Below, piece by piece: positions 3,918 through 22,008 of a stretch of 64,000 nucleotides of DNA. Position 1 is the stretch's first letter; each line of letters starts with the position of its first letter. The position numbers and the translations under genes were made by a program. The stretch comes from Hyalangium ruber (GTDB lineage Bacteria; Myxococcota; Myxococcia; Myxococcales; Myxococcaceae), in contig NZ_JAXIVS010000016.1 of NCBI RefSeq assembly GCF_034259325.1, positions 1 to 64,000 of the forward strand, in the 5' to 3' direction. Under the pieces are notes generated by a model. It had not been told where the DNA came from, searched no databases, and saw only the letters and a program-made list of their open reading frames with translations.

Positions 3918-5531
3918 ATGAACGCCGCGATGAAGGCCTGCCTCGCCCTGTTCGGATTGCTCCTGGCGCTCGGCAGCCCGGCGTTCGCCAAGGGGCCGGC
4001 GCCTCGACGGGGCCCGCTCGTCTTCAGCGGCAACGTCGTCCTCAATGACGAGGTCTACCTCGCCGTCCTGGAGCTACCGCCCGACTTCGTCCCCGACAAG
4101 AGCGGCGCCGCCCAGGTGCGCTCGCGGCTGCTCTCGTTCCTGCACCGCGCCGGTTATGAGCTCGCCCAGGTCGAGACGGCGGTGGACAAGGGCCGCATCC
4201 TCGTGGACATCGACGAGGGCCGCGTGGAGAAGATCATCCTGCGCGGCCAGGGCACCCTGCGCACCGTGCAGGTGCTGCTCGGCCTGAGCCTGCCCCACAA
4301 TGTCTTCAACCGCCCCTACCTCGAGCGCCAGCTCGCCACGCTGCGCCAGGAGAGCGGCGTGGAAGTCGAACGCTTCGAGTTGGTACGCACCAGCGAGGTG
4401 CCCCACGTGGGGCCCCAGGTCGAGGACCTCGGTCCCATCATCGACGACATTGGCAAGTTCGTCGGCCACCCGCTCATCCCCCCGCGCGCCGACTACGAGC
4501 TGCACATCGTCTTCCGGCGCCGCGAGTGGGCCACGGGCCTGGGCGTCGTCGCCGGACTGAGCGGCGTGGACGGCCTGCGCCTCGGGCTCGAGTACCGAGG
4601 CGAGAACCTCTGGCTCAAGGGTGACCGTTGGAGCGCCGGGGGACAGCTCGGCGCCAACCTGCGCACCCGCATCGCCGATGAGCACGCCTACCTGGCCCTC
4701 ACCCGCGCGATCGCCGAGCTGCACTGGCTCACGCCGCCCCTGGGCCGCAAGCTGCGCCCCGTGCTCTCGGCGCGCGGCGAACTCACCAGCCGCCAGCGCC
4801 CCGACGTCGGGCTCGAGAGCTACTTCTCCACCCGCGTGCAGCTCGGGCTCTCCCTGAGCTACGAGTTCATCCCCGGCGCCCTCGTCGCCCTCGGCGTGGG
4901 CGGAGATGAGCTCGAGGTCTTCGCGCTGCGCGGCGTGGAGGGGCTCGGGGTACCCGCCGGCGTGGCGCCCAGCTCCAGCCTGCGCCCCTTCCTGGCCGCC
5001 GGGGCCCAGCTCATCTTCGACCCCGACGAGATCCGCCGGGACCGCCGCCACGAGCTGGAACTCTCGAGCCGGCACTACCCGGGCGCCTCCGGCAGCGACT
5101 ACGGCCTCACCAGCTATCGCTATCAGAAGGTGTTCGAGATCGGCTGGCATGATGTCTGGCTCACCAGCCGAGGCGCATACCTCTGGGGCCAGCCCCCCTT
5201 CGTCGAGGAGCAGCCGGTGGGCGGGCTGCACGTGCGCGGCGTCTTCGGCACGCGCTTCTACGCCCGCCGTGTCGCCAGCGCGGGCCTCGAGGCGAACTTC
5301 TCCATCACCCGCGACATCTACAAGCTCGGCGCCTTCACGGACATCGCCGTGTTCGGCGACATCGACCGGGGCAGCAACACCGAGAAGGCGCGGGTGGTCG
5401 CCAGCCTCGGGCCCGGCTTCCACGTGCTCATCGCCGACGCCTTCCAGCTCGACCTCTATTACAGCCTGGGCTTCGCCGGGCGCGGCCAGGCCGAGCGAGG
5501 CTTCACGCTCAACCTCCGGCAGGCCTTCTGA
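3918..5531 (+). CDS. outer-membrane beta-barrel protein with N-terminal POTRA-like domain (BamA/TpsB superfamily)
   Basis: A 537-residue exported protein. Residues 1-24 form a signal peptide ending SPAFA. Residues about 50-110 look like a POTRA domain (LLSFLHRAGYELAQVETAVDKGRILVDIDEG split around a beta-alpha-alpha-beta pattern, then VEKIILRGQGTLRT). The rest is rich in alternating strands and ends in a terminal Phe (NLRQAF), as expected of an outer-membrane insertion signal. One POTRA domain is fewer than in BamA, so a two-partner secretion or lipid-transport role is possible. The partner and cargo are not evident. The next gene, 79 bases downstream, is also exported and may be in the same operon. 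Confidence 0.72.
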   Translation: MNAAMKACLALFGLLLALGSPAFAKGPAPRRGPLVFSGNVVLNDEVYLAVLELPPDFVPDKSGAAQVRSRLLSFLHRAGYELAQVETAVDKGRILVDIDEGRVEKIILRGQGTLRTVQVLLGLSLPHNVFNRPYLERQLATLRQESGVEVERFELVRTSEVPHVGPQVEDLGPIIDDIGKFVGHPLIPPRADYELHIVFRRREWATGLGVVAGLSGVDGLRLGLEYRGENLWLKGDRWSAGGQLGANLRTRIADEHAYLALTRAIAELHWLTPPLGRKLRPVLSARGELTSRQRPDVGLESYFSTRVQLGLSLSYEFIPGALVALGVGGDELEVFALRGVEGLGVPAGVAPSSSLRPFLAAGAQLIFDPDEIRRDRRHELELSSRHYPGASGSDYGLTSYRYQKVFEIGWHDVWLTSRGAYLWGQPPFVEEQPVGGLHVRGVFGTRFYARRVASAGLEANFSITRDIYKLGAFTDIAVFGDIDRGSNTEKARVVASLGPGFHVLIADAFQLDLYYSLGFAGRGQAERGFTLNLRQAF

Positions 5532-19601: not shown

Positions 19602-20993
19602 ATGGCACCCCGCCGAACCCTTCACGAGCTGGAGCCGGCCTGTCTCCCCTCGGGGACGGAAGTCGGCTCCTGGCGGGTGCTGGAGCTGCGCGGCCGGGGC
19701 ACCTATGGGGCAGTCTACCGCGTCGAGCGGCTGGATACGGAAGGGGCTGGGCCCTTCGCGCTGAAGCTGGCCCTGCACCCGGTGGATCCGCGCTTCGGTC
19801 GCGAGGTAGAGCTGCTCTCGCGCATCGACCACCCGAATGTGCCGCACCTGGAAGGCCGCGGGCTCTGGCCCCACCCCGCCGGCCCGTTCCCCTTCATCGT
19901 CATGGCGTGGGTGGAGGGCGTGCCGCTGTACGATTGGGCCAGCAAGCACCACCCCAGTGGGCGGCAAGTGCTGCGGGTGCTGGCCCAGGTGGCGCGGGCG
20001 CTGGAGGCGACGCATGGAGCACACGGCGTGCACCGAGACGTGAAAGGGGCCAACATGCTGGTTCGGCCCGAAGACGGGAAGGCGACGCTCCTGGACTTCG
20101 GAGCTGGGGACTTCCAGGGAGCGCGGACGCTCACGCGCGAGGTGCTGCCTCCGGGCACACCCCAGTACCGAAGCCCCGAGGCGCTGCGCTACCAGTGGCT
20201 CCATTGGCGCGAGCGTGGCGCCCACTATGAGCCGGGCCCGGCGGATGACGTGTACGCGCTGGGCGTGACGGCCTACCGGCTCGTCATGGGCGCCTACCCA
20301 CCGCTCCCGGCGGAGCCTCTGGTGGCGATGGGTGACCCGCCCGCCCCCGTCTCCGTGCCGGCAACGCTCGAGGCGGCGACAGCCCAGTGCCCGGAACTCG
20401 CGGTGCGCATCCGCCAAGTCCTCTCGGAGGAACCCTCAGCCCGAGGCACCGCTGCCGAGGTGGCCGAGGTGCTCGAACGCGCGGCGGAGAAGGCCGGGCC
20501 TCAGGCGGACCTGCCCCTCCTCCGAAGCAGTGCCCCGGCGGCGGTCGTGCGCACCGGCGCGTCACGCTCCTCGGGCGCGCGGCGGCTGGGACTCACCGTG
20601 ACGGTGGGCGTTGCTGCCGCCCTATCCCTCCATGAATGGTGGAGTTCATGGCCACAGGAGGTGGAGGAGCCCGAGGAGAACGTGGCTCGGCATGGCGATG
20701 GGGAAGATGCTGGCACCACGGGTCTCGCCCAGGACTCGCTCATGGCCAGTGCCCACTTGAAGGCGGCCGAGCCCACCTGGAGAGCCCTGGGCCTGGAGAT
20801 GCCCAAGGAGCCTCTGCCTGGACAGGCACGGCCCCCCTGCAAGAAACGCGAGGTGGTGATCAACGGAGGGTGTTGGGGGCGTCCAGAGGAGCCGACTCCG
20901 CCATGTGGAGAGAGGGATTACGAGTGGAAAGGCGCCTGCTACTACCCGGTCCTCGCTCCCCCGCCGCCCCCCGCGACTTCGGAGCCTCCATAA
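19602..20993 (+). CDS. Ser/Thr protein kinase with single TM and Cys-rich C-terminal tail
   Basis: A 463-residue eukaryotic-like kinase. ATP-binding glycine loop GRGTYG at 31-36, Lys55 (FALKLAL), catalytic loop HRDVKGANML with Asp146, and DFGAG at 165-169. A transmembrane segment lies near 326-345 (LGLTVTVGVAAALSL). The outer tail has a conserved-looking Cys pattern (PCKKREVVINGGCWGR, CGERDYEWKGACYYPV), which I recall in other myxobacterial kinases. The ATG at 19602 follows GAGAGGA by a few bases; the frame runs open upstream to 19428 but not convincingly. Divergent from fmt. Confidence 0.9.
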   Translation: MAPRRTLHELEPACLPSGTEVGSWRVLELRGRGTYGAVYRVERLDTEGAGPFALKLALHPVDPRFGREVELLSRIDHPNVPHLEGRGLWPHPAGPFPFIVMAWVEGVPLYDWASKHHPSGRQVLRVLAQVARALEATHGAHGVHRDVKGANMLVRPEDGKATLLDFGAGDFQGARTLTREVLPPGTPQYRSPEALRYQWLHWRERGAHYEPGPADDVYALGVTAYRLVMGAYPPLPAEPLVAMGDPPAPVSVPATLEAATAQCPELAVRIRQVLSEEPSARGTAAEVAEVLERAAEKAGPQADLPLLRSSAPAAVVRTGASRSSGARRLGLTVTVGVAAALSLHEWWSSWPQEVEEPEENVARHGDGEDAGTTGLAQDSLMASAHLKAAEPTWRALGLEMPKEPLPGQARPPCKKREVVINGGCWGRPEEPTPPCGERDYEWKGACYYPVLAPPPPPATSEPP

Positions 20994-21084: not shown

Positions 21085-21756
21085 TCACGCCGCCTCGCTG
21101 CTCGGGTTGAGGCTGTCCATCAGCGCCTCAACGACTTTGGACATCTGTGCCTCGGGGATGTCCTGGAGGCTGATGAGCAACTGGTCGCGATCCACCCGCG
21201 CACGCACCCGGACGCGATTCTCCTTACCGAAGTGATGCTCCAAGGAGTTGCGGTAGAGCTCCACGCGTGCCGTGGCGTTCTCGGGCAGGGGTGTGGGCGG
21301 AGTGCGCTTGTGCTTCACCGCTGCCTTCAGCTCCTCCATGGTGCAATCGGCGAAGGCCTTCTGCGCCACGGTGCCATCCTCCTGAGGCACGAGGATGGCA
21401 GTGGGCCCCGGCTCGTTGCCGTCCGCCACGAGATTGGCCAGCTTCTCGTAGGTCAACAGCGTGTACAGGTGATACACGCCGTACTTCACACAGGCCGCCG
21501 CGCTGAACGCCCGCGCCACGGCGCCGTAGGTGGTCAGCGCGGACTGGCTGAGCACCTTCACCTTCTGCTGGAAGAACTCCTTGGCGTCCTTGAAGTGGGT
21601 GTTCTTCGTCAGCTCGCGGTCCACCACGTAGTTGTAGAGCCAGCCAATCTGGTAGGCGTCGGCGTTGCCCTGCTCCACCAGTTGGAGGACGCGCGTCTCC
21701 ACCTCGGTGAGAGTGATATTGATGCTCGAATTGCTCTCGTTATTGAGCGTTGTCAT
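21085..21756 (-). CDS. unknown protein preceded by the tandem palindrome array
   Basis: A 223-residue soluble protein starting MTTLNNESNSSINITLTEVETRVLQL, mainly helical in its N-terminal two thirds (AYQIGWLYNYVVDREL, KEFFQQKVKVLSQSALTTYGAVARAF) with a beta-rich segment near 170-200. The start at 21756 has GAGGTGCC before it; 25 further in-frame codons upstream are unlikely to be used. The N-terminus uses more A/T codons than neighbours. Three tandem palindromes lie 165-250 bases upstream. I do not recognise the family; DNA binding or autoregulation would fit the context but is unproven. Confidence 0.8.
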   Translation of the reverse strand: MTTLNNESNSSINITLTEVETRVLQLVEQGNADAYQIGWLYNYVVDRELTKNTHFKDAKEFFQQKVKVLSQSALTTYGAVARAFSAAACVKYGVYHLYTLLTYEKLANLVADGNEPGPTAILVPQEDGTVAQKAFADCTMEELKAAVKHKRTPPTPLPENATARVELYRNSLEHHFGKENRVRVRARVDRDQLLISLQDIPEAQMSKVVEALMDSLNPSSEAA

Positions 21757-21920
21757 GGCACCTCTCGATGAGTTGTTTATTGGGTACGACGAGCGCGGGT
21801 AGAGCAGGAACCGCGCCACCGGCATCACCAAGGGCTCGCTTCATGATTACGGGCAGTTGAATGCCGGCACCAGTCTCGCGCCATGGACACCCGTCCACGC
21901 TGCGGGACTGTGCCAGTCCA

Positions 21921-22008
21921 CTCCCAGATATCTGGGACCAGCCGCCCGCTCACTCCCAGATATCTGGGACCAGCCGCCCGCTCACTCCCAGATATCTGGG
22001 ACCAGCCG
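21921..22008. repeat. three tandem 32-bp units, each with palindrome CCCAGATATCTGGG
   Basis: Units begin at 21921, 21953 and 21985, an exact 32-base period (about three helical turns). Each holds the same perfect 14-base palindrome, at 21923-21936, 21955-21968 and 21987-22000, followed by ACCAGCCG. The interval between units is identical for the first two, and the third diverges after GCCG. The array ends 20 bases from the stop of the LysR gene at 22029 and lies upstream of the unknown gene at 21085-21756. An operator, partition or other protein-binding array is likely. Confidence 0.9.

Follow-up and report, generated by a model that had tools for sequence, protein, structure and literature searches.

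What reads the short tandem array of palindromes that lies at 21919–22008 of a 64-kb stretch of the Hyalangium ruber genome (hereafter the window)? TRF calls this array, to which no strand is assigned, as 2.8 copies of the unit CACTCCCAGATATCTGGGACCAGCCGCCCGCT with a period of 32 and a 100% match, the top-scoring array of the window. The 14-mer CCCAGATATCTGGG starts at 21923, 21955, and 21987, in agreement with the three repeats at an exact period of 32 reported in the first-pass annotation. The perfect 14-bp palindrome reported there is likewise real, but its perfect length is 16 bp (TCCCAGATATCTGGGA); it is the sole recurring palindrome of at least 14 bp within the 64 kb. Each repeat can be framed as a 22-bp dyad, TGGTCCCAGATATCTGGGAGTG, giving three identical sites on the minus strand (21919–21940, 21951–21972, and 21983–22004). 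One half (ATCTGGGAGTG) fits the RAGTG-ended frame of the family described below (nnnnnnRAGTG), and the other half is degenerate at its ends.

A genome-wide search for the palindrome, proposed with the original annotation, returned eight occurrences of CCCAGATATCTGGG in 10.77 Mb, all within three clusters, two of them away from the window: the window array itself (period 32), a cluster at C1 behind dinB (period 28), and a cluster at C20 behind a kinase gene (period 48–49). The reversed pattern gave 0 matches in the same genome, and allowing one mismatch added a single site, inside the C20 cluster. The three arrays have CACTCCCAGATATCTGGGACCAGCC in common; related arrays with altered cores occur at C3, C4, and C16:144 kb. 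Homologous arrays have periods of 27, 41, 48, and 51. Because periods vary to this extent, also around an unchanged palindrome, we reject the earlier argument that a spacing near three helical turns places the sites on one face of the DNA.

The array lies upstream of a minus-strand gene (21085–21756) for a 223-aa protein with a predicted ParB/KorB-like helical DNA-binding domain (residues ~16–151) and an alpha/beta C-domain (159–216). Its description as an unknown gene holds in that the family is undescribed: Pfam, NCBIfam, PADLOC, PHROGs, and PDB sequence profiles gave nothing significant for the protein. The gene is no singleton, however, being one of 11 paralogs in this genome; its putative promoter is of sigma-54 type, with an enhancer common to the family. 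The family numbers ~80 copies in total, carried by Archangium, Hyalangium, Myxococcus/Pyxidicoccus, and relatives (including Archangium lansinium, A. violaceum, Pyxidicoccus caerfyrddinensis, and Hyalangium versicolor); 18 of the 96 genomes at family level carry the gene, as do 6 of 26 genera, at up to 20 copies per genome. Extending the search by profile to 147 genomes of the class yielded one further member, from another family, and one marginal match, and relatives were not found in plasmid, phage, and viral-contig collections. The C4 copy is 76% identical to the window protein and has the same neighborhood—kinase, convergent family gene, array. Members from the Myxococcus/Pyxidicoccus group (L059–L065) carry a C-terminal extension of ~110 residues that looks disordered and has a conserved GLxGxxRRMTGG at its end; one H. 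versicolor contig (L098, G042:C34) holds two family copies ~4.5 kb apart, and truncated copies also occur in these genomes (L119, L120, L121).

In the window, a predicted sigma-54 (RpoN) type promoter, GTGGCGCGGTTCCTGCT (21803–21819, minus strand; GG-N10-GC, score 21/24), lies between array and gene, together with two enhancer-like dyads on the same strand that recur across the family: GTCCCGCAGCGTGGAC (21893–21908; GTCY-N8-RGAC), which starts 89 bp upstream of the promoter, and GTCCATGGCGCGAGAC (21873–21888). With GG-N10-GC and a score of 20 or more of 24 as the call, a putative sigma-54 promoter sits between array and gene in 62 of 70 copies, vs. 4/70 downstream and 3.2% of shuffles, typically 60–100 bp before the gene start; family copies are related by descent, and these and all other counts across them are not independent events. 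Of 64 family upstream regions, 54 contain GTCY-N8-RGAC (1.1 expected from shuffles, other spacings near background), usually at −88/−89 and often again at −67/−69, ~21 bp apart. The pair looks like a common enhancer for one activator. Paired 16-bp dyads ~68 and ~89 bp upstream of GG-N10-GC, two helical turns apart, resemble sigma-54 promoters with bEBP sites; unlike the usual arrangement, an additional palindrome array, specific to the paralog, is present still farther upstream.

This layout bears on the possibility that the array is transcribed as tandem hairpins, for example as the antitoxin RNA of a type III toxin–antitoxin system (ToxIN, CptIN, TenpIN), in which a repeat RNA is co-transcribed upstream of a ToxN-type ribonuclease. 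Tandem repeats upstream of a ~200-codon gene, private to each copy, make up a layout that we take to be like that of toxIN loci. Here, however, the array is farther out than the predicted sigma-54 promoter and therefore outside that promoter's transcript, which argues against a toxin–antitoxin RNA; in most copies the conserved promoter and enhancers separate array from gene and leave no co-transcription from that promoter. Neither a toxin family match for the protein nor an Rfam match above threshold was obtained, no sigma-70 promoter or terminator was found at the array, and orphan arrays occur without the gene. Together with the behavior of the central bases described next, these observations make an RNA element very improbable.

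Palindromic arrays accompany the family at large, each with its own sequence. TRF, run on the first 39 gene loci, identified tandem palindrome arrays upstream of many genes, the palindrome differing from paralog to paralog (for example CCTAACCGGTTAGG, TTCCAACTGGTTGGAA, CTTCCACTCGAGTGGAAG, ACTTCTGCACGTGCAGAAGT, CACTTGTCACCGGTGACAAGTG, and GGCTAGATATCTAGCC). The 450 bp upstream contain a strong dyad (arm score of at least 8) in 45 of the 70 intact copies, vs. 6/70 downstream and 2.1% of shuffles. In some copies no dyad is clear, and at the C4 copy the dyad score missed five imperfect ones. Of the 48 best dyads used for half-site analysis, 9 are of the shared-enhancer type and 39 of the array type. 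Many sites fit a 22-bp frame, CACTY-N12-RAGTG, whose ends are conserved and whose center is variable yet palindromic; read from the center outwards, half-sites end in RAGTG in many copies, with variable inner bases. In a noncircular search that used CACT and AGTG only, at any spacing, a spacing of 14 (the 22-bp site) stood out, with 28 upstream vs. 2 downstream. An exact search of the genome contigs for CCCAGATATCTGGGACCAG gave 0 matches, as expected if every genome has its own palindromes.

Among 15 distinct sites, inner pairing averaged 6.53/7, vs. 3.19 when halves were swapped between sites (maximum 4.8 in 2000 trials); the center therefore changes between copies but stays palindromic. Covariation of this kind is as expected of a dyad that would be bound by a dimer, unlike the would-be loop of a hairpin. 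Protein identity also tracks site identity (Spearman 0.267; permutation maximum 0.15 in 2000), a correlation that demonstrates co-evolution, not binding, and that partly reflects shared descent. When specificity was mapped to protein segments, the best windows were residues 177–192 and 45–60, not clearly beyond permutations.

The same correlation weighs on the alternative that the palindromes are sites of another regulator—an enhancer-binding activator, LysR, or a kinase-controlled factor—with the adjacent protein a mere target. Sites upstream of a sigma-54 promoter are where activator sites are usual, and kinases are often near: in this genome, 7 of the 11 family copies have a Ser/Thr kinase gene no more than ~5 kb away, against roughly 14–21% expected given its at least 154 kinases. 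In the window, a Ser/Thr protein kinase gene (19602–20993, plus strand) is the convergent neighbor, its membership in the module being uncertain; paralogs of this kinase are found next to the family copy at C4 and next to the orphan array at C20. Loci with a nearby kinase (the window, L008, L006, L055, and L056) vary in the position and orientation of the kinase. One regulator cannot account for paralog-specific palindromes that track paralog sequence, the shared enhancer dyads are a better activator candidate, and LysR is not a constant neighbor; LysR, which the annotation had mentioned as a nearby regulator, looks irrelevant, the array following its 3′ end. We accordingly regard control by another regulator as improbable. 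The kinase was separately considered as an obligate partner and rejected, being near only 31 of 69 loci and in variable position.

For the family protein, AlphaFold2 (70 sequences) gave a confident model, with a pLDDT of 87 in full and of 88.5 for the N-domain alone (pTM 0.80). The best 12 VIA-align matches of the N-domain are the DNA-binding domains of KorB, Spo0J, ParB, Noc, P1 ParB, and SopB (Z 7.3 to 4.0), ahead of the first unrelated chain at Z 3.8; the best, KorB 1r71, aligns at Z 7.3 with an rmsd of 3.2 across 107 residues, a Z of ~7 being within the chance range for helical folds. Foldseek returned nothing significant for the full model or N-domain against the PDB or for the full model against viral models, and the C-domain resembles only common ferredoxin-like folds. 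That the leading matches all belong to one superfamily of palindrome binders is a strong lead from modeling, for which a Z of ~7 alone is not proof. hhalign profile comparison with myxobacterial ParB detected no sequence similarity, Pfam and NCBIfam identify no ParB domain, and the N-terminal ParB/CTPase domain is absent, the protein beginning at the helical domain. For lack of profile similarity and of a CTPase domain, we suggest that the protein may work like KorB/ParB and their sites, and do not claim that it is a ParB.

KorB-OB of plasmid RK2, ParB-parS, Noc-NBS, and VirB-virS likewise have dispersed palindromic sites, and the helix-turn-helix predicted here is nearest to that of KorB/Spo0J/ParB/Noc/SopB. 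KorB sites lie away from the promoter (PMC11790492), as do those of VirB (PMC10770331) and those of the present family. Unlike KorB, ParB, and Noc, the family lacks the N-terminal CTPase domain and profile similarity to ParB, and combines 22-bp sites, a paralog-specific center, tandem arrays, many different copies per genome, and a sigma-54 promoter. Taken together, the family-wide association, site–protein covariation, presence and absence across genomes, and predicted fold lend comparative support to two proposals of the first-pass annotation: that the repeats are operator- or partition-like sites, and that the 21085–21756 product is a candidate binder.

The annotation had also held that finding the repeat absent from close relatives with the gene intact would count against it; instead, gene and repeat occur together. 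Searched with a covariance model of the 22-bp site, six gene-bearing genomes each gave 6–47 strand matches, and nine genomes that lack the gene, including congeners from three genera (G006; G060, G062, G069, and G077; G036 and G038), gave none. A tenth gene-free genome, G034, had a single marginal match (E 0.034).

Copies of the arrays also occur apart from family genes. In this genome, orphan sites or arrays lie at C1, C3, C4, C7, C15, C16, C20, C21, and C25, and relatives have them too. Their sequences point to particular family copies: the C1 and C20 orphans match the window array, the C16:144-kb orphan matches that of the C4 copy, the C15 orphan has the exact palindrome of the C18:115-kb copy, and the C25 orphan is a TAACCGGTTA array, as at the C18:31-kb copy, with period 27 in both. 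With gene calls from a simple codon-bias rule, orphan arrays are mostly intergenic and most are near a gene's 3′ end, none of ~15 informative cases lying between two gene starts. Apart from one array belonging to a family copy, those checked have no enhancer pair; arrays at gene 3′ ends without the enhancer pair are unexplained by an operator role alone. In G007, thrC and its neighbor flank an orphan array that bears the spacer AGTGCATTTGAAATRCCACTTTTCAC of that genome's own gene-linked array, and an array can therefore be copied along with its spacer. G004, whose flank is 96% identical, has the same two genes with no array between them; the array was therefore gained or lost between close relatives.

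In the main rival reading, the palindromes are short REP/BIME-like intergenic elements of a mobile or selfish kind, and the protein serves their mobility or maintenance, as RAYT does for REPs, and is not chiefly a regulator. The intergenic, 3′-end placement of the orphans, the thrC-side array with the spacer of the gene-linked array, and the joint presence and absence of gene and sites all fit it, and REP/BIME elements with RAYT (PMC2817692) share gene-linked palindromes, dispersed intergenic copies, and a private palindrome class per gene copy. Unlike RAYT, however, the protein has no Y1/HUH transposase domain—Pfam, NCBIfam, and PHROGs identify no transposase domain of any kind—and its family's invariant residues include no D, E, or H. 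REP hairpins have a loop and a GTAG head (PMC2817692), whereas the present dyads are mostly perfect through the center, lack that head, and form direct tandem arrays on the upstream side, placed regularly relative to a conserved sigma-54 promoter; sites per genome number only tens, not hundreds. As a full account this reading is unlikely, though a partly selfish, REP-like origin of the orphan arrays is compatible with the explanation that we prefer. In the literature collection searched, queries on myxobacterial REP or tandem palindromes returned nothing relevant and no paper describing these repeats.

Sequence comparison and the predicted fold thus leave a probable reading in which the array is the private binding-site cluster of the adjacent gene's product, which would control its own sigma-54 promoter and bind dispersed REP-like arrays. 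The protein most likely binds the 22-bp palindrome as a dimer through its ParB/KorB-like helix-turn-helix domain, the outer CACTY...RAGTG being common to much of the family and the inner bases changing with the protein between paralogs. With the array placed upstream of the enhancer dyads and the sigma-54 promoter, the bound protein would probably adjust its own enhancer-driven transcription from a distance, in a feedback loop. It would occupy orphan copies of its own array as well, and these would have spread near the 3′ ends of other genes, been gained and lost with the protein, and served in nucleoprotein organization or in REP-like spread.

More tentatively, and with somewhat less than even confidence, we propose a new class of system: multicopy, mutually orthogonal modules in which CTPase-less ParB/KorB-fold proteins have private, co-evolving arrays copied as short mobile arrays into intergenic sites, with up to ~20 independent protein–site address systems per genome under a common sigma-54 switch. 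If binding is confirmed, the family would provide a natural set of many distinct protein–palindrome pairs in one lineage, a ParB/KorB-like recognition code readable by comparison alone (constant outer, variable inner contacts), and an example of a regulator whose own operator array disperses across the genome, which would connect operators with parS-like sites and REP elements.

Several loci show parts of this architecture in other settings. At G000:C26:56395 and C26:75850, perfect enhancer pairs are accompanied by neither a clear sigma-54 promoter nor a family gene. At L164 (C5:476130–484130; 4001–5138, plus strand), a PF04754 (YhgA/Rpn, Transposase_31) gene is preceded by this same enhancer pair, which deviates from the paired pattern at one position, and by a putative sigma-54 promoter scoring 22; the enhancer thus seems to control more than the array-linked family. 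Orphan arrays at G000:C3:296461–296513 (L007) and C7:271636–271685 (L154) have cores (AACYGGTTGG or AACGGGTTGG) that are close to the cores of the C3:668-kb and C5 copies, and they sit between convergent or tandem genes.
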